NCBI GenBank assembly: GCA_938743325.2
Contig: OW568862.1
Location: 411,501 to 475,500, forward strand
Source: Pycnococcus provasolii
Taxonomy: Eukaryota; Chlorophyta; Pseudoscourfieldiophyceae; Pseudoscourfieldiales; Pycnococcaceae
Length of the DNA stretch: 64,000 nt
Direction of reading: 5' to 3'
The position numbers and the translations under genes were made by a program. The notes beneath the pieces are model-generated. The model saw nothing but the letters and a program-made list of their open reading frames with translations, was not told where the DNA came from and did no database searches. Shown in pieces: positions 15,336 through 33,137 of the stretch. The stretch's first letter is position 1. Each line of letters opens with the position of its first letter.

Positions 15336-15682
15336 GAGGGGGGGATAATGGCGGAATGATCACAGTGGTAGTGGTGCAAGACCAACACCGGGTCCCCAGA
15401 ATAACGGGAAAATTACTACCGAAAATTTACTGGTGCATTTACTGGTGCAGACTAAATCGCCCGTTATATCAGGAGAGTATTTCTAGGAAGCACGACCTGA
15501 GTGCCCGTACTCTCGTACCGGTTTGGTGGAGGGCCGACCTATCGCCCCGTTGTTCCCCGCCGACCTAACGCCCCGTTGTGGAGAGGTCCTCCTGGTTTTT
15601 TCGCTACCTCCAGGAGCCTCCTGGAGGTAGCGAAAAAACGGCCATCTCCGCCATCGCCCCATCACCACTCACCGCCCTTCAA
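15336..15682 (+). repeat. Left terminal inverted repeat of element A
   Basis: 347 bp, starting GAGGGGGGGATAATGG. It contains a perfect 21-bp-arm hairpin with a one-base loop at 15596-15638 (arm ttttttcgctacctccagga plus g). TIRs of Mutator elements hold both transposase binding sites and promoters. Short open frames inside are ignored. Confidence 0.93.
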
Positions 15683-15800
15683 CTTTACAATGTTCGATGT
15701 GTGAGAGTGGCTCAACGGTGCATCGTCCCGAACGACCAAAAACTCTGCAACCGCCATCACCACCGGCCATCGCTCTCACAAGTGACATACGGGACCGGCC

Positions 15801-16695
15801 ATGGGGTGCGGGGCGTCGACGGCAACATCAACGGCGCGCAAGGAAGAACTCTGGCCGACGACAGTGCTGACAGTCAAGCCAACGAGGCAAGACGTCGATG
15901 ATGGGAAGACTCAGGCCGAATATTCGTCCGAGTCGCCCGTGAGCCGCGCGGTGTCGCTCGCTTGGCTTGCAGAGTTTGTTAAGGCGCACGCCGGAACGAC
16001 GCACAGCTGGGAGGTTAACAAGGAGTTCATGGCTGAGGAGGTTGGTGGTGGAAAGGATACGAGCTTGATCGTGACGTCTGACAACATAGAGATGCACCGC
16101 GACAAGCGACGCGCGGCTGAAAAGTTAATGAGTGGCAAGCCGGTTCCGGTGCAGTACCGCGAGATCCCGTTCGAGCAGATGTACACGACGGATATCGTCG
16201 AGTGCTTCGTGCGTTCGCTTGCACGCAAAGAGCACATGAGCTACGCGCAAGCCGAGAATCTTCCTGTTGGCGCGCCGACGTACTTCATTTCGCACGCGTG
16301 GGGAAGCACTTTTGTCGACCTCGTGGAAAGTGTGAAAGGGGCACTCGCAGGCGCTGCTCAAAACGATACGTGTGGCTTGACATTTTCGCCATCAACCAGG
16401 ACGATACGGGTGGCGTATCTTCAGCCAGGAAAGAGCTCGACGACGGCCGCACGCTCGCTGGTACGATAGCGACGTTTCGCGCAACACTCGTCGTGCTGGA
16501 TAAAGATCGCGTCATTCCGTTGACGAGGTTGTGGTGCCTGTACGAGATCGGGTCGACACCACCGAAAAGCTTCAACTCGTCACGCACGGCTTCTCGGAAA
16601 AGGACGTGTCGCAGCACATTCGTAATATCGACGCGGAGACGGCGTTGTGCTTTTCGGATAGACAAAACACTGTTTGGGATGCATTGATTAGGTAA
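15801..16695 (+). pseudogene. Frameshifted HAWG / WLDIFAINQ family gene carried by element A
   Basis: The reading frame starts at 15801 with MGCGAS, a potential N-myristoylation/palmitoylation site, and runs to YFISHAWGSTFVDLVESVKG. Coding similarity then continues in a second frame from about 16365 (YVWLDIFAINQDDTGG, then VIPLTRLWCLYEIG) and in a third from about 16551 (VDTTEKLQLVTHGFSEKDVS) to a stop at 16693. The HAWG, WLDIFAINQ and RLWCLYEI blocks together mark a protein family I associate with microalgae and other protists and whose function is unknown. As read, two frame changes break it; small introns or assembly errors are less likely because no GT-AG pair sits at the joins. Probably a captured cellular gene now decaying. 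Confidence 0.7.
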
Positions 16696-16762
16696 ATCTG
16701 TAATATTGAATGTAACGTGTGCACTATCAAAATTTAGTTTAGCAACACAGATTAGTCATTTC

Positions 16763-17367
16763 TTACGGCGGCGTGACGCTCGCCCACACTGCGTCGGTCC
16801 TCTCCACGACGTCCCACCTGCCGGTCCACCCATCAGCAAGCACGACGGTGTCGCCGGCACAATTGCGCCGTGCAGACCCGTCTTCGTTCGTCAGAAATAC
16901 CGTTCCGCAAATAATGTGCACGCACTCCGCGGTCTTGCCCTTACCTCCCGGGAAGCTCCCAGGCGCGCACGACGAGAATCCGGCACGCGTACGCCCGTTG
17001 TCAAGAAACGTACGTGCGAGGCGCTCGGGCGATGTGCCTGCGCGTTCGAGCATGTGCGGCGCAAAACTAGCGAGCGACGCCACCACAGGCGTCGTGGACG
17101 CGCCAGGAAGATCGTCGTGCGCGTCGTTGATCCATACATTGTGAATCTGCTCGGTGATGTCCCAACGTCCGTACCAACCCTTTGACAGCACGACGACGTC
17201 GCCCGCCCGGAAGTCGTGCCTCGTGCCGTCCGGGTCGGTCACCGCGCGCGCACCACTGAGCACGACGAACCACTCGGTGGTTTTTTTGTGGTTGGGGCTG
17301 TCCCAGCCTCCCTGCGTGCACACCCACGATCCGCACGAGAACGACGCGTCCGACGCGAGGTCAATCT

Positions 17368-17398
<31 letters not shown>

Positions 17399-17437
17399 AA
17401 TCTGCTCCGCCGCCTCCTCCGGGTCAAGCAGCGTCAA
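16763..17437 (-). CDS. Tandem cupin (Cupin_3/DUF861-like) protein, transposon cargo
   Basis: 224 residues, uninterrupted. Two cupin halves are visible. The first has EWFVVLSGARAVTDPDGTRH followed by FRAGDVVVLSKGWYGRWDI; the second has CVHIICGTVFLTNEDGSARR then CAGDTVVLADGWTGRWDV. The pattern GD-V-V-L-x-x-GW-x-G-RWD is characteristic of Cupin_3 (EutQ / ureidoglycine aminohydrolase-like) proteins. Canonical metal His residues appear sparse, so catalytic activity is doubtful. The N-terminus has an Ala run flanked by two EQID repeats encoded by a GCC microsatellite. Transcribed opposite to the flanking cargo genes. It is the best-preserved cargo of element A; origin (host or bacterial) is unresolved. 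Confidence 0.7.
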
Positions 17438-17516
17438 TCTGCTCCGCCTCCTCCTCCGCCGCTGCCGCGTTCCCTTGCACAGCCGTCTCCACCTCTTCCG
17501 CCACCTTCACCGACGA

Positions 17517-18454
17517 TGCCGGATATGACGTGGCAGTACAACGACGCAATGGCGCGTCTTCTCGGCGAGCCGGTTGCCCCGCGCGCACCTGCCCCGGCAC
17601 AAGCGCTGCCGCCTCACGATGCACCCAGCATCTTGGGCGCGTGCGCCGCCCAAGCGCGTCAGCGGCGTGCGGCAGCGTGACAGCGTCTGCGCCCGAGCGG
17701 CGTCGCGCCCGCCGAGGTGGCGGAGCTCGTCGCGCTCTCCGGCCGCTGCGCGTCCGCGCGCGACGTGCGCGAGACGTGCCGCGTGATAGAGTGCGTCGTG
17801 TACGAGGACGAGGCGCGCGAAACGTCCGTGCTCGACGCCGTGCACACCATGCGCCGCCTCAAGCGCGGCGGGGTGCTGACGCCGACGGCCATGTGGTCGG
17901 TGTGCCGCGATCAGACCAAGGTGTACGTCATGATGGACGCCGTGACGGTGCGGCGGGTCGTGTTTCACTTTGCGGCGAAACGCGACGAGGCCGACGTTTC
18001 GGCCGAGCTCTTTGCCAAGCGTCTGACGGACTTGCGGTGGGAGGACGTCGTGAAGACGCTGGCGCCGCTATGGAAGACGAACGTCGGCCACTTCGAGCCG
18101 GAGAGGGAGACGTCGATGGCGGCGCTGGCCGAGATGCAGCGAGCGTGCGCAAACGGCGTCGGCGACGGCGCCGAGCGAGAGGTGGTTCTCAGGCGCGCCC
18201 TGGGCGCCGCAAAGGGCGCGCGCGTCTCGCCGCGCAACGCAGAGTTTGCGCGCAAGGCGCCCACCGGCGCGGCGGCGGTCGCGCGCTGGTGGGCCGCGCG
18301 CGAGAAGGACGAAAAAGAGTGCGAAACGACGCTCGACCTCATGCGCTCGCCATATTCGAGCTGTCTGGAGGTGGACACGACCGACTGCCCGCTCTGGACG
18401 GCCACGCCCGATATGCTCAACACGCTCGCCATGACGGGCGCGCTCGCCGTGTGA
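17517..18454 (+). pseudogene. Hypothetical cargo gene interrupted by one in-frame TGA
   Basis: From MPDMTWQYNDAMARLLGEPV at 17517 the frame stays open to a TGA at 17678-17680, then continues in the same frame (alternative start MAELVALSGR at 17717) to a stop at 18454. The downstream 245 residues are protein-like and mostly helical (for example GGVLTPTAMWSVCRDQTKVY and RDEADVSAELFAKRLTDL), with no family I recognise. Either a single nonsense change split an older gene or the 245-residue part is a functional shorter gene with its own start. TGTAA follows at 18480. Bases 18520-18650 contain a duplicated 77-bp-scale segment (cgcgccgccgccgtcgcgct occurs twice). Confidence 0.5.
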
Positions 18455-18567
18455 GTGCGTCGCTCGCGGCGCGCGCTGTTGTAACATGAGTATTTCTTAT
18501 CATAAAACCGCGTACACGACTTCGCGCCGCCGCCGTCGCGCTGCCAGCGCGCCAAAGACACACACGC

Positions 18568-18930
18568 TCAGTCCCGCCCACGCACAACTTCGCGCCGCCG
18601 CCGTCGCGCTGCCAGCGCGCCAAAGACGCACACGCTCAGTCCCGCCCACGCGAGCACCACGACGGCGAACCACGTCCAGAACGGCTCGAGGCTCGAGCTC
18701 CGACGAGCGCGCGCGGCGCCCGATGATGCGACGAGCAGCGGCGGAGGCGGCGGAGGCGGGGGTGACGGAGCGGGGGAGGGAGGAGGGGGCGACGACGGCG
18801 TCGGCGTCGCGCACGTCGCGCTCGTCCACACGCCGCCGTCGACGACGGTGGTGAAGGCGTTGGGGCTGATCAGACCGACGCTTGGGTCGTTCCCGCGCAG
18901 CGCGCCGAGTCGTCTGATGCCGACACGCAC
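18568..18930 (-). CDS. Putative Pro-rich single-span membrane protein fragment, element A cargo
   Basis: A 120-residue frame; a real start may lie further upstream or be missing. A Pro-rich linker near residues 48-66 is followed by SLEPFWTWFAVVVLAWAGLS, a convincing transmembrane segment, and a basic stop-transfer RRRRREVV. The N-terminal side (GLISPNAFTTVVDGGVWTSA) looks like the end of an extracellular domain. The adjoining upstream sequence codes plausibly in another frame, suggesting further decay. Function unknown; chance open frame in GC-rich DNA cannot be excluded. Confidence 0.35.
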   Translation of the reverse strand: MRVGIRRLGALRGNDPSVGLISPNAFTTVVDGGVWTSATCATPTPSSPPPPSPAPSPPPPPPPPLLVASSGAARARRSSSLEPFWTWFAVVVLAWAGLSVCVFGALAARRRRREVVRGRD

Positions 18931-19220
18931 ACGAAGCCCGCGCCCACGGCGAGGCGCGAGACGGTCACCGACGGAGACATCGGGGGGATGGAGACCGCCG
19001 CCGAGGGGTACACCGTCGTCGTGCCTCGTCTTGCTTCACCGCCCTCATCACCACGTCATCGCGCTGAGCTATCGGCAAGGGCACGCGACCTCCTTGCTGA
19101 CCTGAGCGACGACGACGGCGACGACGACGACGACATGGCCGCGGCCGCGGCTCTTGCCCGTTTGATTGTGCAAGAGGGTGTTGCCCCAGGTGCCTGTCAG
19201 ACAAGCGAAGGAGGGGAGTA

Positions 19221-19567
19221 TTGAAGGGCGGTGAGTGGTGATGGGGCGATGGCGGAGATGGCCGTTTTTTCGCTACCTCCAGGAGGCTCCTGGAGGTAGC
19301 GAAAAAACCAGGAGGACCTCTCCACAACGGGGCGTTAGGTCGGCGGGGAACAACGGGGCGATAGGTCGGCCCTCCACCAAACCGGTACGAGAGTACGGGC
19401 ACTCAGGTCGTGCTTCCTAGAAATACTCTCCTGATATAACGGGCGATTTAGTCTGCACCAGTAAATGCACCAGTAAATTTTCGGTAGTAATTTTCCCGTT
19501 ATTCTGGGGACCCGGTGTTGGTCTTGCACCACTACCACTGTGATCATTCCGCCATTATCCCCCTCTC
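19221..19567 (-). repeat. Right terminal inverted repeat of element A
   Basis: 347 bp, the inverse complement of the left repeat with a single difference near the tip. The same 21-bp-arm hairpin is at 19265-19307. Confidence 0.93.
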
Positions 19568-23848: not shown

Positions 23849-23857
23849 CCCCTAACC
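23849..23857. repeat. Target-site duplication of element B, left copy
   Basis: cccctaacc, matched exactly at 32995-33003. Because both lie in telomere-like sequence the match is slightly less decisive than for element A, but it abuts the TIR tips on both sides. Confidence 0.75.
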
Positions 23858-24182
23858 GAGGGGGGGATAATGGTCAGATGATCACAGTGGTAGTGGTGCA
23901 AGACCAACACCGGGTCCCCAGAATAACGGGAAAATTACTACCGAAAATTTACTGGTGCATTTACTGGTGCAGACTAAATTCACGGTACAAGAGTTGGGTT
24001 TTTCTGGGAAGCACGACCTGAGTGCCCGTACTCTCGTACCGGTTTGGGTGAAGGGCCGACCTATCGCCCCGTTGTTCCCCGCCGACCTAACGCCCCGTTG
24101 TGGAGGGTTCAGGGTTCCTCCTGGAGGCGGCGAAAAAACGATCGTCTTAAGCAAGGCCATCTCAGATCATCGCCATCACCAC
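23858..24182 (+). repeat. Left terminal inverted repeat of element B
   Basis: Starts GAGGGGGGGATAATGG. The first 248 bp (to 24105) equal the right end exactly; 24106-24182 still align but with substitutions and indels (cctcctggaggcggcgaaaa against ...ggtggcgaaaa). The tract from about 23970 to 24005 differs from element A while both flanks match it. Confidence 0.92.
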
Positions 24183-24193
24183 CGCGGCGGTCA

Positions 24194-24512
24194 GGCCAGC
24201 CTTAAGGCGCGGCCAGCAGGACGAGCAGCAGCAGCAGGGCAGCAGGAGCAACTGCAGGGACGCAGTGTCAAGGCCAGCCTTAAGGCGCGGCCAGCAGCAC
24301 GAGCAGCAGCAGCAGGGCAGCAGGAGCAACTGCAGGGACGCAGTGTCAAGGCCAGCCTTAAGGCGCGGCCAGCAGGACGAGCAGCAGCAGCAGGGCAGCA
24401 GGGTCAAGGCCAGCCTTAAGGCGCGGCCAGCAGGACGAGCAGCAGCAGCAGGGCAGCAGGGTCAAGGCCAGCCTTAAGGCGCGGCCAGCAGGACGAGCAG
24501 CAGCAGGGCAGG
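24194..24512. repeat. GC-rich minisatellite upstream of the transposase
   Basis: Five tandem units start at 24194, 24272, 24350, 24408 and 24466. The first two are 78 bp, the next two 58 bp (lacking a 20-bp internal block), the last is cut off at the transposase start. Each has ggccagccttaaggcgcggc and an AGC/GCA run. It lies between the TIR and the ATG, so it may be leader or regulatory sequence. Confidence 0.85.
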
Positions 24513-27500
24513 ATGGCAGGGTTCCCATGTCACGGGCTACGCGCCCTTAGCACGGTGCTCGCGTCGGCGGATACGCACGCCGCCCTAGAGAAGAAAGCGG
24601 GAAGCCTGATGGTCAGCCTCACGGGAAGGCGAGACGCGAAACGCCTTCAAGCGATCGTCGCAAACTTGTACGTCAGAGATGGCGTCGTCTACGCCCGCTC
24701 TGACGTACAAGTTCATGAGCAACTCGTCGTGCCTAAGGAGGTGTCGTTGTTCGTTGTGTGTATGGCTGCTGTAACTATCACAGTAAACACACTTAAAAAG
24801 ACGACACGCACGAAACACAACGCCCTGTTCAGCTCCCAGGCCGTTGTGCAACTCCTTGCCAAGCACGGCTTCTACGCCGGCGTGAAGAAGTCCGGCAATC
24901 TTGGCGTAGAGCAAGTCTCCCCCCTCATAGATGCTTTCCAAGACAGAATCGACGACTTGCTCGACGCCACAGTTGTGGCGCACAAGGCGTTGCCCACTGG
25001 CAATGACGTGTGTGCCCAAGTTAAGGCCGTCTATGACGTGCTCACTAGCATTGGTTGGCGTGATTTGCCTACCAATCCTGATGTAACACGTGCCTTTTTA
25101 AAATCTGAGCGTGACGTCCTCTTCGGTCCGCCCGGCGATGCTGGACGACGTTTCGTGTTCAGCATCGCCGGTGAGCAGCACGTCTGTTGGACACGGTTTC
25201 GACACATTGCCGTCGCGGCGGCATCAAAGGCACGTGGAATACACGTATATTATTGCCACCGCTGGCGTGAGCCGAGACACACGTCCACGCATCCTTCCGG
25301 CACACCCGGAATGTCTCAGGCACACGAGGAGAAAGAGAAGGAGAAAGAGAAGGAGACGTCGGACTCTAACGTCAACGGCGTCGACGTCGACGACAACTCA
25401 AACAGCCTGAGTGCACCGGCTGATGTTTCATCGAGTCGTGCCTTCGTCGACGACATGGCCCCTCACGAGAGCATCATCGCAGCCGTGTTACCATTCGACG
25501 AAGCGGTGCATGATGGCTCTGACAGTGACAGTGAAGACGACGGAGATGAAGGAGACGGCTCGCACGGCATAGATGTTGCTGAGGATAGTGGAGTAACTCA
25601 ACAACTTTCCACAATCCCAAAACATTTATTGCCTCCCAGTTTTCCTGAATTACGCGGCGCTCCGGACGTTCCCGTTCCTCCACCGCCTCCCGCTACCGAT
25701 CCTCCACGACCCGCTCCTTCACGAACAGCGCGTGAAAGACGCTCACTGAACACCCACAAGGGTTGTTCTTGTCGTGCGAAATTGGTCGTGATTGAGGGAA
25801 AGGAGGCTATAGCCCTTGTGGCATGCCACGACCACACCGGTCATACTGTTGGATCCGTGGAGGATAGGAAGCACCTACCTGTACATCCTGCTGTGGAACG
25901 AATGATCGCTGATCAAGCGAGCAAGCGTTGCACTCTCCTCAGTCGAGGAGAGGTCGCCAAGTACGCGAGCTCTTGCCGCCTCACATATGTGAAGCACCGA
26001 CGACGTGTTCTCTTCGAGAATGAGACGCGTTCGGCCTCCTTGCCGGGGTACGCACCGGGAACGTCGGCAGCGTCTCCTGCGTTCGAAGTTCGAAAACGAG
26101 GAGATCTTTTACAAAGTGTAACTGAGCATAGGAAAGCGTTTTGTTTGTGCAACTCGTTCCTTCCCCCCTCAGAGCATGGTGCCGTTCCCGTAGTCACGTG
26201 CATGACATGTTGTGACGTCTACCACGTGTCGTGCGTTTCCAACGCCCTGTGGTACGATCATGGTGTTGACCACGACACGTGGCGATGCCAGCCGTGCGTC
26301 AAAAACGGCACCGCGCGCATGTCTGACGCGCTCAACATGTGCGCCGAATCCGGTCTTCCCTTCAACATCAGCGACTTCAGGCCGTGGGTCACGAAGGAGG
26401 ATTTCAAGAATAGTAGGAAGGCCGTGAATGCGAGCTCCCGTTCGTACCGCTCAAGCGTGGACGACGACATTCGCGTTCTTCAGCAGTATCACGAAAGTGT
26501 TGCATTTCCCTCCACGTACATAAGAACGTGTGAGATGGCGAACACCACCAAGCTCCAAGAACTCGAGTTCATGGTGATTAGTCCCAAGATGTTGGCATTT
26601 GCAAAAAAAAACCGAGGAGTTCTTTCTGTATTACATATTGACTTCACACACAACACGACCACGTCTTCGGTCCAGTTGGGTTCAATTGTTGGCGCGAACG
26701 CCGACACCCGGGGCACGGGAATACCCCTTGGACACATGTTCTACCTCCCAGGTAGCGTACAAACCCAATACAACGACAAGACCTCAGCCTTGTACAACGT
26801 GTACAACGCGTGGTCTGAGGCCATCGATGCTGGCATCGATGGTTATCGTGTCACCCGATGCCATATGATGGACAAGGATGTCGCGTCGTTGAACGCAACC
26901 CTGATGTTGATGAAGAAGCGCTTGAGGAGCGCCCTTCACAGGAACAAGGATGTGTTGGACGCTGAGATCCACACACTCTCTAGCATGCCGTGCATGTCGG
27001 ACGATGGCACGGCCAAGGCCGTCGTTGAACAACTTAAGACCTTGAAAACGCCTGTCACGACCACACCACATGCCCATACAAAAAAAAAGGCAGAAACGCA
27101 CGGACTTCTCGCACCGCACGTGTCCGAGCTTTTCGATGCAGGCGTTGTCCATGGCCTCGCACATCTTCTTGTAGCAGAGTTTCATGCGGCAAGTGCGAAG
27201 CTCATTTCCGCCGATTCGTGTGGCAAGTGGAATAACGCTGCGTCGGAGTTGTGGTGGTGCCTTAGCATCTTGAACAAAGACTGTACTTTGTATCACATTG
27301 TAAACACGTTCATGTGTACCTTTGTGTTTCTTTGTTCATGGCACGCCCACACTGCGATCGCTAGAGAGATCCAGGCCTACAACATGGTTGTCAGGGACTA
27401 CGTTGATGAAGTTTTGACATCAATCAAAGCCATCTTCAGAGGTGATATGTGCTTGGACGACTTCGTCAGCACGCACCGTGATGTGCTTTCGGTAGTAGGT

Positions 27501-30500
27501 GAACCACCTCTCAAAAAGAGAAAAGTAGTTCAAGGAGTCACGAGGAGTAAACATGAATATCAACTAGTTCGTTACCTCAACAATGATTGGTTGTGCGACA
27601 CGTACGCGCCCCTCATTCTCCAGTCGTACCGTGCCCCAATCCCGCGGTACGAGATAGATACTAACAATCAGGCTGAAATATCGTTCAACGTGTTGAAGCA
27701 CAATATCGCACGTTCGATAGCTTCACCAACAGTTAGGAATCTCCTTCAGGTTTTGGTGGGCACGCCCACGGCCCCAGACCCACTGAATTCCGTCATTGGC
27801 GTGAAGCTTCAAGACGTTGATCACATGAGACTTGGTGTCTCATGTGAGAGTAAAAATTACAAGGCGACACGTCTCACCGCCAAGATTGACGTGCTACGAC
27901 TCCGTTTGCACAACGATGACGGGTACGTGGAAGATGTGTCCCCCGGCGGTTATGTTGTAAGGGTTGGTCGGGGGAGTAAACGGGGGAGTAAACCTCTTCT
28001 ACCCTCTGAACATGACGTGAGCCCCTCAAGCCACATAGCTGACGGCGACATACAAGTCAGCCGCGCGGCCCACTTCTCCGCGAAGTCCACTGCTTCTGAT
28101 GAGAAGGAAAGAGTGATACAACTCAAGGGAATCGTTGGAGCTATAGTGCCCCATCACGCGATGGGACTATTCGAGCATAGCACTGATGTGTTGCGTATCG
28201 CGGACGCGGTACACAAGTCAGCGTTTGTAAAGCACTTTAGTGCATTACACAGGATTTCAAAGTATAGAATAGCCGACGCCATGCGTCACGCGCCCACAAG
28301 ATTGCATGAGCGCGTAGCTACTATTCTTGCCAAGCCACCGGCGACTCGAACTCACGAACACTTGCGCCAGGCGTTCTACCACTTGGGCATGCCAGTGGTG
28401 GAAAAGTGGCATGGCATGCCGCGGGTAGGTGCTTGTTATGTGGTCATGGTAGTCATGGCACCACAGGTCCTAGTAGGCGCTGTAGACTTCGCTAAAGAAC
28501 AACCAGAAGCCCTCGCGCTTGACGTGTTGTCGGTGTTGTTTAGCGCATTTGACTACGTTCAGGCCCGGCCTAAAGCCCAGGCTCTTGAAAACGTTACGTT
28601 ATTCTACGTAGGTCGAGAGCTCCGCAATGTCCACGCCCTCAAGCGCGTGTTGGACCATGGAACCAAGTCAGGTTCGCCTATATTGCACCACTTCGTTGGT
28701 GCATCGAAGGGCTGGGTCACCGAACCCTTCGGCGCTGTCGCAGTGGAAAGGCGTTTCGTGGCTTTCACACCACCATCCACACAGATGCTCGACATAGCTG
28801 AGGCCGCATGGCACGTGGTCTTGCTCGAGTGCGCCATGCCTTGCGTAGCCAACACGTCACCAGGGGGTGATCCACATGGCCACCGGTTTCTGCACGACAC
28901 GCACGTGGCAACGTCAGGGATTATGAGGATGGGTCACGACCGACTCAGGGATCATGGTGTGAAGGCAATTTCAGAGATGAAGTTGTCCTCCGAACAGAAC
29001 CCGTTCATGAAACGAGCGCTTGTCGCCTCCTCCCGTACACTTCGCCTCACGCGTGGACGCGGTGAAGCTGACGCGGACGTGGGCGAAGACCTGTGGTGGG
29101 ATGCGTGGTGCAATGCCGTAGATGGCAATCAAGAAGAGCACACTGTACACTTGTGGTGTAACATATGCTCTTGCGGAAATACCTTTTGCGCACACCTCAT
29201 GTTAGCCCGGAAACGCCACGAAGACATGTTTCACAGGGTTCAGGTGTGGGATGACGACATGTTGTCCTTGTACAAGGGACAAGCACACAGGGATGGTGGT
29301 GCTGACACATGGACGGAACTCGACGAGGCCGGGTTCGAATATGGTCCATGTAACTCTCCAAGCGAGGAACCCCTTGCACCATTCCAAAGCCATGTGCCCG
29401 CTTCACCCGACATGCGTCAGTCCTTAGAGGAAGCGTCCATGTGCGCGTACGCGGTGTCGCTCTCTTTGGCCAAGATGGCGAACGGAGAGTGTGACACTGT
29501 CACGCCGAAGGCAGCGGCGGATTACCGAGATAGGTTGTTTGCTATGTTGTCATCCATACGAAACGTCGAACGTGGCGTCGTAGGAGTCCGAGCCCAGTCA
29601 GAGCACTGGATGACTCGGAGCGTCACGGCGTCCGAAGTGCAAATGTCGAACGCCGCAGCACGTGACGTGCACTCGTCTGATTTTCACGAAATCATGCGAA
29701 GTGCTTTGAGCTCCGGCGCGCATGCTCGGTTGTTCACATTCATGAAAGGAGTTGTAGGGCCCACGGCGACGCCGTCGGCGACGCAAACTCAGGCGTCACC
29801 GTGTCAGAACTTGGTCAACGCAGCAATGCAAGCCATCGCCGAGTTGCCGTCTGAAACGGTGACGCCGAGTCCACCTGTGGCGGCGAGGCGGGCGAGCAAA
29901 GGCAAGGAGAAGGCCTTGTCTCAGACGGAGGAGCACGTGTTGCCATCTCAGGTCTTGCCGTCTCCAACGGAGACGGGAAGTCAACCCGCGACGAGGAAGT
30001 CCTTGCACGTGACATTCACGCAAGAGTCGGACGTGCACATCGCACCCACACCGGAAGAGTGTAAACGCCATTTCCTTGCGGTTCTTCGCAGAGATGCTTT
30101 CGACGAGCTTGTGTATGTAACTGAAGAGGAATTTAACAAGTTCTCGGTGCATACGAAGGAGTGGTACGACACCCAGGTGTTGAAAGCGAACATTTTGGAA
30201 TGTGGAATTAAGGACATCGTAAGTGGACACCACCTGTGGACCCTCAAGCCTGGAGGATGGCTTAAGGATAGCATTGTAACGTATATGTTATATTGCGTTC
30301 TTGCAAGCGTGAAAGTCCCACACGAGCGTGATGAGAAGGGTGTGTTTAGGCCCAACACACTCGTCCACATGCACTGTGCTTTATTGTCCGACACGAACCA
30401 GTCTTTCGACAATAAAAAAAAACTTAAGGACAAGATGAACAAGGCGAAACGGTGGCTATGTGTTGTATGTAACGATGTGCACTATAGTCTAGTTTCCGTT

Positions 30501-31628
30501 AACTGTGAGAGTGGTGCTATTCAGCACTATGACAGTTGCCCTGGTCTGCACACAAGTGAAACGGTGCTTACATTTTGTAAGACAATGTTCGGACGTCGAT
30601 TCCGAGACATGTCTTATGAAGTAGTAGAGTGTCCGAAACAAAACAATGGCTTCGACTGCGCGTTATACACTGCGTTGAACGTTGAAGCGGTTCTACTCGA
30701 CGTTAGCCCTAATGTTGTCACGCAGCGTCGAGTGAACGAGTTGAGGAAAAGCACACGAGTGAAGCTCAAAGATTGTTTCCTAGGTCAAGAGCAAGACTGG
30801 TGGGTAGAGGAGGAAGACGACGATGAAGTTGCCGCGAAAATTGAGGAACTTCACACAGTTGGACACGTCCTCGTGCATGTCATGAGCGACGCCGACGCGT
30901 GGAAAATCCACCACGCGTTGGTGACAACACTCGCGAACAACACGTTGGTGGCGTGGGATGGAATCTTCGACAACGTTGTTGCGCAAGATGCGCAAGATGG
31001 GCAAGAAACCTTTGAGCGTGACATGATAAACGTGAATGACGCTTTCACAAATCATGTATCAGGAGGCGAAGATCTATTACAACGTATCGAAAGTTACCAC
31101 AATCGTGTAGATAGGTACATGGGTGGTAGGACGTGCCCAGAAGGAGCCGTGCTCTTGCGGTCGTGTCCCGAGCGCGCAGGAAATAATGCGCGTACGGGCT
31201 TGCCCAACTTCAAGAAAGGTCCATGTCAAGCCCCGCACGTGGACTACACGGACGTATATGAAGACGTAGCGGACGACGATGTTCCGCTTGTCGTCATCAT
31301 AGCGATACAAGAAGGCACCAAGGTGAGGATCTGGCCAGAGTCAACGAAGGGGAAAGGCATATGGATTGCGAAAAAAAAAAAGAATGAGAACCTAACAAAA
31401 GGACTGTTGGACTACGTGGACGTGCACATTCCCGTCGGGTACGCATTCATCATGCGCGGGGACCTCGTGCACGCCGGCGTAGGATACGACATCGTGCAGC
31501 TCAGGTTGCACAAGGAGTACAAGCACCACAGTAAGAAAAAAGGGGTATGTAAGAAGTACAACCCACAAACTGCGTTATGGCATCCCGAATTGTTCAAGGA
31601 GCTATACAAATCCGGCAAGATAACGTGA
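24513..31628 (+). CDS. Multi-domain MULE transposase: zinc N-terminus, PHD, DDE, SWIM, Ulp1 protease, 2OG-Fe(II) oxygenase-like
   Basis: 2371 residues in one exon. Domains in order: a possible zinc-binding DNA-recognition module (C418, C420, C438, H439/H441/H444) after an acidic and Pro-rich region; a PHD finger at 544-595 (CLC ... CMTC ... H ... WRCQPC); a MULE-type DDE core with D710 (LHIDFTHNT), D787 (MMDKD), the C941-x2-H944 motif (CSWHAH) and E1055 (TNNQAEISFNVLKH); a SWIM finger (C1552, C1554, C1559, H1561); a C48 Ulp1 protease with the full set H1990, D2007, Q2043 and C2049 (CPKQNNGFDC); and a C-terminal double-stranded beta-helix-like region with H2242-x-D2244, H2320 and R2331, the metal and 2-oxoglutarate pattern of Fe(II) dioxygenases. 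MULE transposases fused to Ulp1 are known in plants; the oxygenase-like end is unusual. A KKRK nuclear signal lies near 1004. All recognised catalytic residues are present. Confidence 0.9.
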   Translation: MAGFPCHGLRALSTVLASADTHAALEKKAGSLMVSLTGRRDAKRLQAIVANLYVRDGVVYARSDVQVHEQLVVPKEVSLFVVCMAAVTITVNTLKKTTRTKHNALFSSQAVVQLLAKHGFYAGVKKSGNLGVEQVSPLIDAFQDRIDDLLDATVVAHKALPTGNDVCAQVKAVYDVLTSIGWRDLPTNPDVTRAFLKSERDVLFGPPGDAGRRFVFSIAGEQHVCWTRFRHIAVAAASKARGIHVYYCHRWREPRHTSTHPSGTPGMSQAHEEKEKEKEKETSDSNVNGVDVDDNSNSLSAPADVSSSRAFVDDMAPHESIIAAVLPFDEAVHDGSDSDSEDDGDEGDGSHGIDVAEDSGVTQQLSTIPKHLLPPSFPELRGAPDVPVPPPPPATDPPRPAPSRTARERRSLNTHKGCSCRAKLVVIEGKEAIALVACHDHTGHTVGSVEDRKHLPVHPAVERMIADQASKRCTLLSRGEVAKYASSCRLTYVKHRRRVLFENETRSASLPGYAPGTSAASPAFEVRKRGDLLQSVTEHRKAFCLCNSFLPPSEHGAVPVVTCMTCCDVYHVSCVSNALWYDHGVDHDTWRCQPCVKNGTARMSDALNMCAESGLPFNISDFRPWVTKEDFKNSRKAVNASSRSYRSSVDDDIRVLQQYHESVAFPSTYIRTCEMANTTKLQELEFMVISPKMLAFAKKNRGVLSVLHIDFTHNTTTSSVQLGSIVGANADTRGTGIPLGHMFYLPGSVQTQYNDKTSALYNVYNAWSEAIDAGIDGYRVTRCHMMDKDVASLNATLMLMKKRLRSALHRNKDVLDAEIHTLSSMPCMSDDGTAKAVVEQLKTLKTPVTTTPHAHTKKKAETHGLLAPHVSELFDAGVVHGLAHLLVAEFHAASAKLISADSCGKWNNAASELWWCLSILNKDCTLYHIVNTFMCTFVFLCSWHAHTAIAREIQAYNMVVRDYVDEVLTSIKAIFRGDMCLDDFVSTHRDVLSVVGEPPLKKRKVVQGVTRSKHEYQLVRYLNNDWLCDTYAPLILQSYRAPIPRYEIDTNNQAEISFNVLKHNIARSIASPTVRNLLQVLVGTPTAPDPLNSVIGVKLQDVDHMRLGVSCESKNYKATRLTAKIDVLRLRLHNDDGYVEDVSPGGYVVRVGRGSKRGSKPLLPSEHDVSPSSHIADGDIQVSRAAHFSAKSTASDEKERVIQLKGIVGAIVPHHAMGLFEHSTDVLRIADAVHKSAFVKHFSALHRISKYRIADAMRHAPTRLHERVATILAKPPATRTHEHLRQAFYHLGMPVVEKWHGMPRVGACYVVMVVMAPQVLVGAVDFAKEQPEALALDVLSVLFSAFDYVQARPKAQALENVTLFYVGRELRNVHALKRVLDHGTKSGSPILHHFVGASKGWVTEPFGAVAVERRFVAFTPPSTQMLDIAEAAWHVVLLECAMPCVANTSPGGDPHGHRFLHDTHVATSGIMRMGHDRLRDHGVKAISEMKLSSEQNPFMKRALVASSRTLRLTRGRGEADADVGEDLWWDAWCNAVDGNQEEHTVHLWCNICSCGNTFCAHLMLARKRHEDMFHRVQVWDDDMLSLYKGQAHRDGGADTWTELDEAGFEYGPCNSPSEEPLAPFQSHVPASPDMRQSLEEASMCAYAVSLSLAKMANGECDTVTPKAAADYRDRLFAMLSSIRNVERGVVGVRAQSEHWMTRSVTASEVQMSNAAARDVHSSDFHEIMRSALSSGAHARLFTFMKGVVGPTATPSATQTQASPCQNLVNAAMQAIAELPSETVTPSPPVAARRASKGKEKALSQTEEHVLPSQVLPSPTETGSQPATRKSLHVTFTQESDVHIAPTPEECKRHFLAVLRRDAFDELVYVTEEEFNKFSVHTKEWYDTQVLKANILECGIKDIVSGHHLWTLKPGGWLKDSIVTYMLYCVLASVKVPHERDEKGVFRPNTLVHMHCALLSDTNQSFDNKKKLKDKMNKAKRWLCVVCNDVHYSLVSVNCESGAIQHYDSCPGLHTSETVLTFCKTMFGRRFRDMSYEVVECPKQNNGFDCALYTALNVEAVLLDVSPNVVTQRRVNELRKSTRVKLKDCFLGQEQDWWVEEEDDDEVAAKIEELHTVGHVLVHVMSDADAWKIHHALVTTLANNTLVAWDGIFDNVVAQDAQDGQETFERDMINVNDAFTNHVSGGEDLLQRIESYHNRVDRYMGGRTCPEGAVLLRSCPERAGNNARTGLPNFKKGPCQAPHVDYTDVYEDVADDDVPLVVIIAIQEGTKVRIWPESTKGKGIWIAKKKKNENLTKGLLDYVDVHIPVGYAFIMRGDLVHAGVGYDIVQLRLHKEYKHHSKKKGVCKKYNPQTALWHPELFKELYKSGKIT

Positions 31629-31732
31629 GAAACTGTGAGGGAGAGGGGGCAGGTGAAAAGGGAAGGGGGTGTTAATCAAAAGAAAATTGAAAACCAAGGC
31701 AAATCATTTAAAATCATCATTTAAACCAACTC

Positions 31733-32207
31733 CTACACCCCACCGTGTTGCCCACCCTGCTGCTGGCGGCGACGCCGCATCTTCCGGCTTTGGTTCCGCC
31801 GTTGCTTCTCTTCTGGTGTGCGCCCGTTGTCGTTGACGTTGACATTCACGCTGAGGTTGTTTGTGTTATGGTAGCGGTCGCGGTCGCGGTCGCGGTCGCG
31901 GTCGCGGTCGCGGTCGCCGTCGCCGTCGCGGTAGCGGTCGCGGTCGCGACCGCGGTCGCGGTCGCCGTCGCCGTCGCGGTAGCGGTCGCGGTCACGGTAG
32001 CGGTCGCGGTAGCGGTCACGGTCGCGGTCGCCGTCGCGGTAGCGGTCGCGGTCGCGGCTGGGCAGTGGCGAGAGCGGCGGGAGCGGCTGAGCGCCACCGT
32101 CGTCGTCCTCGTCTCCGTAAAAGAAGAACGGCGGCGCTTCCGCAGCCGCCTCCACATCCAGTTCCGCCATGTCCGCCTCCCTCCTCGCCTCTGCTTCCGC
32201 CCGAGTC

Positions 32208-32242
<35 letters not shown>

Positions 32243-32668
32243 TTCCTTGGCGGCGGCTTGCCCCTGCTGGGTGAGCTCGTGCTCGAAAACACGGCCCACC
32301 CATAGTTTTTTGCACGTACGGCATCGTGGTTTAGTATAAAAGTTCATCGTACCGCAGGATCCCCACACACAACCAAAGAAGGGTTGCGGCTCGGTGCCGT
32401 CCCTTAGGCGGCCGCAACGCCACTGCTCGGAGTCCCTTGCGGCTTTGGCGGCGTCCCTTGCGGCGGCGGCGGCTTTGGCGGCGACGGCGGCGGCCTCGGC
32501 CTCGGCCCTGCCGGCGACGAGGAGTCCGGTCACGGACTCCCCCACCTTAGCCTTGTGCGGTATACGGAACGGTTTCTCCTGCACCTCCGACGACTTGCGT
32601 TGCTCGGCGTTGCTTGCCGAGTCGTCGGAGCCAGGGCTCGAGCTCCGACACCGGTCCTTGCCCTTCAT
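31733..32668 (-). CDS. Second gene of element B: zinc-ribbon protein with RD/RY repeats (mudrB-like position)
   Basis: 311 residues from the ATG at 32668 (MKGKDRCRSS); an in-frame ATG at 32752 lies inside the TIR and was not preferred. An Ala-rich helix (about 55-80) leads to a candidate zinc site, C85, C100, C105, C116 and C119 (FFGCVWGSCG then RCRTCKKLW). Another Ala-rich helix follows, then an acidic patch and a long Arg/Asp/Tyr/Gly repeat (about 195-285) encoded by a GGTCGC hexamer array at 31872-32060. The end is basic (KMRRRRQQQGGQHGGV). RD/RE repeats are known in splicing and nucleic-acid-binding proteins. The convergent position recalls mudrB of MuDR, with no sequence similarity claimed. 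Confidence 0.65.
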
Positions 32669-32677
32669 CTGTTCCTG

Positions 32678-32994
32678 CTGGTGATGGCGATGGCGGAGAT
32701 GGCCTTGCTTGAGGCAGTCGTTTTTTCGCCACCTCCAGGAGGACCTCTCCACAACGGGGCGTTAGGTCGGCGGGGAACAACGGGGCGATAGGTCGGCCCT
32801 TCACCCAAACCGGTACGAGAGTACGGGCACTCAGGTCGTGCTTCCCAGAAAAACCCAACTCTTGTACCGTGAATTTAGTCTGCACCAGTAAATGCACCAG
32901 TAAATTTTCGGTAGTAATTTTCCCGTTATTCTGGGGACCCGGTGTTGGTCTTGCACCACTACCACTGTGATCATCTGACCATTATCCCCCCCTC
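32678..32994 (-). repeat. Right terminal inverted repeat of element B
   Basis: Inverse of the left TIR; bases 32747-32994 match it exactly over 248 bp. Probably contains the promoter of the minus-strand gene. Confidence 0.92.
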
Positions 32995-33137
32995 CCCCTA
33001 ACCCTAATCCCTAACCCGAACCCCTAACCCCTAACCCCGAACCCCGAATCAACACCTCCAAAAAAAAACAAGGCCTGCTCCGCCCTTAAACCTTTAGGGG
33101 AGTTTCCCCCTCCCATTTGCAAATCACGCCAAGTGCC
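32995..33137. repeat. Right TSD of element B and telomere-like spacer
   Basis: The 9-mer cccctaacc (32995-33003) is the right target-site duplication. It runs into ccctaatccctaacccgaac and further CCCCTAACC-type sequence to about 33050, then an A-run and the start of the next gene. Confidence 0.75.

Follow-up and report, generated by a model that had tools for sequence, protein, structure and literature searches.

A young, autonomous-looking Mutator-like DNA transposon with a fused Ulp1 protease domain in the green alga Pycnococcus provasolii

Results

The window analysed here (64,000 nucleotides of Pycnococcus provasolii, assembly GCA_938743325.2, contig OW568862.1, positions 411,501 to 475,500 of the forward strand) was found to contain a real, recently moved transposon at 23858-32994. 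The element is young and looks autonomous, and it probably represents a DNA transposon of the cut-and-paste type from the Mutator superfamily (Mutator-like elements, MULEs) in the broad sense, Rehavkus-type elements included. Its membership in the MULEs is the most likely assignment on motif order and on the anatomy of the element and is unproven by sequence similarity; it is filed here as MULE-like in anatomy and not as a proven member. The initial annotation had described a complete-looking and recent element of MULE type, and this description finds good support in the anatomy of its ends and target sites, a near-identical second copy, deletion derivatives and passengers resembling Pack-MULEs.

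Structure of the element and its target site duplications

The outer 248 bp of the left terminal inverted repeat (TIR; 23858-24105, + strand) were found to be identical to the right TIR (32747-32994, - strand) on direct comparison, followed by an imperfect continuation of the inverted repeat for 53 bp (to about 24163 on the left side). Inverted-repeat detection gave arms of 253 nt at 99%. The exact 9-bp target site duplication (TSD) CCCCTAACC was found on both sides of the element, at 23849-23857 and at 32995-33003. This TSD lies within a CCCTAA-like repeat and, taken alone, is weak evidence in such surroundings; the evidence is strengthened because 10 other elements were found to contain exact 9-bp TSDs of different sequence.

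Exact 9-bp TSDs were present in 11/11 elements with both ends mapped, which lies within the range of 8-11 bp given for MULEs (PMC6446971). The first six were CCCCTAACC, ACCTATGTA, GGGGCCAAT, GGTTTCATA, GTTTAGATT and CCAAGCAAG, followed by GCTACTGTT, CCTCCCCCA, CATACTGCA, CGCCCAACG and ACCCCCGAT, and no common target motif was evident by eye among the 11. The best 40 of 56 candidate TIR matches in the genome were scored, and the counts cover elements with both ends mapped. The TSD count started from 16 sequences, in which L037 and L038 were the two halves of one copy; L047, L049 and L050 were left out as relatives with 82% alike TIRs and true ends further out, and L048 as a lone TIR plus 82% relatives. 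L047-L050 (contigs C31, C7 and C5) appear as a separate family, in which the inner TIR is 82% alike, the conserved ends lie further out and about 4.1 kb separate the outer edges of the inner TIR matches.

The interior was found to contain a transposase-like open reading frame (ORF; P0001, 24513-31628, + strand) with an ATG start and 2371 codons without a stop. The identical TIRs, the exact duplication and the uninterrupted frame all stand at the coordinates first assigned to them. A 58/78-bp minisatellite is present beside the left (5′) TIR at 24193-24506, and each of its units contains the palindrome GCCTTAAGGC; the array is a possible candidate for a transposase-binding array. Near the 3′ end only short-unit arrays (6-bp and similar) were found. 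A search of the window against Rfam gave no match. The minisatellite, the antisense ORF, the other copies and the element at 15336-19567 had been absent from the initial annotation.

Copies in the host genome

The genome searched comprised 32.33 Mb in 46 contigs, and the window lies on a contig of 1.45 Mb (C2). The published assembly of P. provasolii CCAP 190/2 is described as containing 44 chromosomes and 32.2 Mb, from 444-fold HiFi data and Hi-C (PMC11130579). An assembly artefact as the source of the TIR pair is unlikely, because this assembly, presumably the one used here, rests on HiFi and Hi-C data; the further copies also speak in favour of the element.

The search of the genome with the 2371-aa protein gave 9 matches, among which the window copy was the sole full-length frame without interruption. 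The copy on contig C3 was also of full length, but an insertion of 2698 bp, associated with a 7-bp repeat, breaks its ORF near residue 2333. With the insertion excluded, it differed from the window copy at 2/9137 positions (99.98% identity), and 0/6990 compared positions of the ORF were changed. The insertion itself (L037 to L038) was found to contain a minus-strand ORF of 631 aa that looks Copia-like by eye. The copy on C31 (5367 bp) retained residues 1-218 and 1474-2371, with about 219-1473 deleted, and the copy on C15 was a deletion derivative of 1980 bp. Four elements, those on C2, C3, C31 and C15, thus contain the entire ORF or a part of it between such TIRs. Tests of selection on the copies were uninformative, since the differences between copies were too few.

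Elements sharing the TIRs alone

Seven of the 11 two-ended elements were found to have only their TIRs in common with the window element (91.6-97.7%), and among these six were of 4.2 kb and one, on contig C33, was of 6.3 kb. The window was found to contain one such non-autonomous, Pack-MULE-like element at 15336-19567, with TIRs 92-93% alike, the TSD ACCCCCGAT and fragments of STAND-NTPase/WD40 genes inside; five 4.2-kb copies elsewhere in the genome were 98.2-99.1% alike to it. The interior of the C33 element contained a 911-aa frame in which NPHP3_N and one WD40 repeat scored above the Pfam cut-offs and NACHT below its threshold. Among the best 50 of 199 candidates scored, at least 11 long relatives of this gene were present elsewhere, at 81-93% identity and with open frames of 1431-1593 aa, and the 4.2-kb elements retained fragments of the same STAND-NTPase/WD40 gene family.

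The 15336-19567 element and its relatives were therefore found to combine ends with a TSD, no transposase and a captured fragment with longer relatives elsewhere, which is the anatomy of Pack-MULEs insofar as the ends are MULE ends. Since the TIRs are shared, these passengers presumably move in trans, through a transposase able to recognise such ends.

At L062 (G000:C23:430000-439800), relatives of the STAND/WD40 genes were also observed as convergent copies, within a long inverted repeat of 2843 nt at 99.75% that extends to the edge of the stretch analysed; repeats spaced by 126 bp in it correspond to the WD40 end of the gene in the C33 element. Similar convergent pairs, judged by position, were found at C23:394064/397447 and C3:1026173/1028738. 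The layout of L062 recalls fungal NLR genes with repeat-driven variability.

Domains of the 2371-aa protein

The protein was found to contain a CxCxA...HDH finger-like motif at residues 418-444 (25764-25844, + strand), which resembles, at motif level, the N-terminal fingers of the MULEs resident in this genome. It was followed by a probable PHD finger at residues 544-595 (26142-26297, + strand), a putative DDE core at about residues 700-1070 (26610-27722, + strand) with D710, D787, C941xxH944 and E1055 as judged from motif order, a SWIM-like CxCx4CxH motif at residues 1549-1561 (29157-29195, + strand), a Ulp1/SENP-type cysteine protease domain at residues 1908-2084 (30234-30764, + strand) and a C-terminal domain with the motif HxD...H...R at residues 2242-2331 (31236-31505, + strand).

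The protease domain is certain on sequence grounds. Peptidase_C48 matched the whole chain at E 4.7e-9, above the curated Pfam cut-off, and the cut-out piece at E 1.8e-10, and it was the only domain of the protein to pass a curated profile cut-off. Alignments to yeast Ulp1 (1euv), SENP8 (2bkq) and a Ulp1-like protease (6dg4) spanned H1990, D2007, Q2043 and C2049, the four catalytic residues that had been pointed out at first reading. The PHD finger is probable, with 11.9 bits (E 0.24, Pfam) for the whole chain and 18.8 bits (E 0.0017) for the cut-out piece, both below the Pfam cut-off of 24. The SWIM finger annotated initially was reduced to its CxCx4CxH motif, the spacing of which is shorter than that of a SWIM finger; no SWIM profile matched the whole chain or its pieces, and a pattern CxC(4-25)CxH was present anywhere in 191/5000 whole-protein shuffles.

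The proposed oxygenase-like end was not confirmed. H2242, D2244, H2320 and R2331 are plausibly spaced for HxD...H...R, and the motif was found in 4218/20000 shuffles of residues 2120-2371 (21%). The C-terminal piece gave no Pfam match and no significant match in the PDB, and it was not among the 33 places elsewhere in the genome that matched the 2OG-FeII_Oxy_3 profile. A scan with an RGDLVHAG-type motif gave one viral and two bacterial stretches, none of which was judged convincing as a relative on inspection, and single-sequence AlphaFold2 of the C-terminus was uninformative (predicted local distance difference test, pLDDT, 34). Identity as a 2-oxoglutarate (2OG)-Fe(II) oxygenase was not adopted, and the last 150 residues are treated as an orphan domain. 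The 'seven-part' transposase of the initial annotation thus comes down to a certain Ulp1 domain, a probable PHD finger, and a DDE core and SWIM-like motif at the level of motifs, with the oxygenase undemonstrated.

Wider homologue searches with residues 530-1130 and 1860-2371 retrieved only three proteins, from Pseudoscourfieldia marina and P. provasolii; the three database homologues of the catalytic region were all labelled 'hypothetical protein' and their hosts were Pseudoscourfieldiophyceae. The search of viral contigs with the DDE and C-terminal pieces gave no relative.

The putative catalytic core and the superfamily

The DDE triad had been placed in a MULE context by the initial annotation; D710, D787, the CSWH at 941-944 and E1055 are in place, and support from profiles was not obtained. 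The motifs CxCxA...HDH, D.T, D, CxxH, NNQAE..N and CxC..CxH were found to be collinear, in the same order as in other resident MULEs. The pattern D.T-D-CxxH-[AL]E..N-CxC..CxH was present in 3/8 other resident MULE families and in 9/20000 whole-protein shuffles, the full pattern with the N-terminal motif in 3/8 families and 1/5000 shuffles, and the core motif alone in 6/8 families. A stricter core pattern with N[NQ]..AE was found in 0/20000 shuffles and is given no weight, as it was built on the letters of the protein itself. The long TIRs with 248 identical bp and the constant 9-bp TSD are MULE features in the anatomy of the element.

Several results weigh against a MULE assignment. No transposase profile (MULE, Transposase_mut, KDZ or other) matched the protein or the pieces tried, in searches run to E 1 for the whole chain, E 10 for pieces and E 1 for the genome; a lack of hits to MULE profiles was one of the outcomes that the initial annotation had named as refuting it. 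BLASTP of the protein against the resident MULEs gave no support for DDE homology. In hhalign, the core reached a probability of at most 1.8% against the resident MULEs, less than the 6.6% obtained for a decoy segment of the protein itself; with block profiles built from eight resident MULEs, the protein scored below the best shuffles in 5/5 blocks. The single-sequence AlphaFold2 model of the core was uninformative (pLDDT 33.9), as was that of the C-terminus. The DDE motif alone was present in 1724/20000 whole-protein shuffles and in 193/20000 shuffles within residues 600-1130, and the shuffle figures are lenient, since the motif patterns were written after the protein had been seen. The gene models described below also omit part of the core. 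A homologue search with the alignment of resident MULEs retrieved one protein.

A narrower form of the same assignment, in which the element is specifically of Rehavkus type and not Mutator proper, is possible and doubtful. Rehavkus is described as a sister group of the MULEs with a 9-bp TSD, TIRs of 26-400 bp, one main ORF, a PHD finger and a minisatellite (PMC6446971), and the window element agrees in its 9-bp TSD, in TIRs of tens to hundreds of bp and in a single main ORF, which has a probable PHD finger. The PHD finger here is, however, below threshold, and the likeness is one of described features. The minisatellite of Rehavkus precedes the 3′ TIR, whereas the strong 58/78-bp array of the window element lies beside the 5′ TIR; moreover, the groups listed for Rehavkus in that source are arthropods and annelids, and no Ulp1 is listed there (PMC6446971).

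Membership in some other, perhaps undescribed DDE superfamily, outside both Mutator and Rehavkus, which happens to make 9-bp TSDs and long TIRs, is unlikely. The MULE profile matched 19 other places in the genome (L018-L036), 13 of them over the cut-off, and not the window ORF; credible similarity to the resident MULEs was likewise not found, and D787 is separated from CSWH by 154 residues, all of which would suit such a superfamily. Against it stand the 9-bp TSD in every two-ended element, the long TIRs, the gene-carrying derivatives with the same ends, the MULE-like order of motifs and a TNNQAE motif close to the DNQAE of the resident MULE L030.

Two other superfamilies were considered. Ginger1 was rejected, as the TSD is of 9 bp and not the 4-bp CCGG/CCGT and no integrase profile matched. 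KDZ elements have precedents for Ulp1 and oxygenase domains, and the TSD of Zisupton is of 8 bp; KDZ was set aside, as hmmscan gave no match for the protein and the TSD is of 9 bp. The genome search with the KDZ transposase domain PF18758 gave no match, but the controls of that search likewise gave none.

The 2371-aa ORF could also be a passenger, with the TIRs moved by the transposase of another resident MULE, and this is quite improbable. In its favour, profiles do not establish the catalytic core, and uninterrupted frames of 733-934 aa were present at 16/19 MULE-profile places; they fall into about eight families, several have identical copies, and young MULEs thus seem abundant in the genome. 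For the best 40 of 56 TIR matches, however, not one of the 19 places was found less than 50 kb away, and therefore the window ORF is the only transposase candidate seen inside these TIRs, where all or part of it recurs in the four elements named above.

Very improbable, finally, is a dead remnant or a multi-exon gene whose spliced product would lack the catalytic E: CSWH and E1055 are missing from 3/3 NCBI models, two of which share their cuts there, but most of their other cuts differ, one uninterrupted 2371-codon frame reads through all of them, and the C3 copy is nearly identical.

Gene models and the second ORF

The NCBI gene models P0002, P0003 and P0004 were found to be near-identical to the protein and to omit stretches, mostly in frame; many of the omitted stretches have GT...AG-like borders by eye, and P0004 contains one frame shift and an early end. 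The two cuts shared by P0003 and P0004 cover residues 934-1019 and 1045-1074; elsewhere the models, though near-identical in sequence, are mostly cut at different places. From the sequences, the omitted stretches are read as probable artefacts of the gene predictor, and a real shared intron over E1055, as a control by splicing, may exist.

An antisense ORF of 311 aa (31733-32668, - strand) was found to start at 32668, a short way inward of the right TIR, and to run to 31733, convergent with the transposase ORF. Its frame was kept in the C3 copy and also in C31, there with an altered end and a length of 318 aa, and was shortened to 151 aa in C15. It is of low complexity, with nothing credible in Pfam, and contains a C-x4-C-x3-N-x6-C-x2-C finger-like motif, which we take to be RanBP2-finger-like; its RD-rich tail is encoded by a 6/12-bp array, and a 6-bp tandem array lies within it at 31870-32057. 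The ORF is a candidate second gene, as yet unproven.

Discussion

The best reading of the element is a highly divergent Mutator/Rehavkus-like autonomous transposon, with a possible affinity to Rehavkus. Insertion with a 9-bp duplication, recent spread, deletion derivatives and passengers with TIRs alone were all observed in this genome. In the mechanism proposed, the 2371-aa protein would bind the 248-bp TIRs, cut through a DDE (RNase H-like) core of D710, D787 and E1055 and insert at sites staggered by 9 bp, and the same protein would act in trans on the short derivatives and on the Pack-MULE-like elements with STAND/WD40 fragments. The PHD finger may make contact with chromatin by reading histone tails, and the Ulp1 domain may remove SUMO or a similar modifier, either from the transposase or from proteins of chromatin or repair, which could ease silencing or integration. 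The precise role of Ulp1 in plant MULEs is called unknown in the literature, where the Ulp1-bearing VANC (KIU) genes are described as members of an anti-silencing family (PMC13317346). According to a suggestion by Bao et al., repair factors may be activated by such proteases while transposition proceeds or afterwards (PMC2836005). The furthest-reaching form of this proposal, one chain in which a DDE transposase is joined to a PHD histone reader, a SUMO protease and, at the C-terminus, an eraser of oxygenase type, as a self-contained anti-silencing transposase of a deep, unrecognised branch lying between Mutator and Rehavkus in the green lineage, is rather unlikely.

MuDR of maize has a 9-bp TSD and a convergent mudrA/mudrB layout, which the antisense ORF of the window element resembles, and we know of no Ulp1 or PHD in mudrA. 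The long TIRs, the second ORF and the non-autonomous relatives, including Pack-MULEs in plants, are further likenesses to MuDR (PMC6446971). Ulp1 domains in some plant MULEs, mentioned in the initial annotation, are indeed known (PMC2528002): the KI-MULEs and other Ulp1-bearing MULEs of plants (Kaonashi, VANDAL/KIU, melon, rice and grapevine) are described with Ulp1 (C48) and 9-bp TSDs as found here (PMC2528002, PMC13317346). In the KI-MULEs, the protease domain is given in reverse orientation to mudrA, and KIU is given as one of three coding genes; both orientations of the protease are reported for melon and rice. In contrast to the KI-MULEs, the Ulp1 domain of the window element follows the putative catalytic core as an in-frame fusion.

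A DDE core, Ulp1 and PHD in one transposase have a precedent in Ginger1-9_HM of hydra, in which, unlike in the window element, the core is of Gypsy-integrase type, the TSD is a 4-bp CCGG/CCGT and the PHD is C-terminal (PMC2836005). With this precedent and the PHD described for Rehavkus (PMC6446971), the claim of an undescribed combination is weakened. The combination of DDE, PHD and Ulp1 in one 2371-aa prasinophyte chain, with a core beyond the reach of profiles, was not found in the literature searched (few subscription journals, no Repbase), which is no proof of novelty. The fungal DNA transposons that carry TET/JBP are described as using a transposon-borne 2OG oxygenase against silencing and belong to other superfamilies (PMC12730594), and the window element differs from them in that its C-terminal domain shows no demonstrable oxygenase homology.

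The element is hidden in annotated proteomes, as the NCBI models omit part of its putative catalytic core. The carriage of gene fragments (STAND/WD40 receptor-like) by ends of MULE type is found here outside land plants. A second full-length copy that is 99.98% identical, TSDs that are still intact and short passengers sharing its ends make the element look young enough for its movement to be catchable. If movement were caught, this picoplanktonic green alga would offer a natural system of Mutator type in which the function of transposon-borne Ulp1 and PHD modules could be tested.

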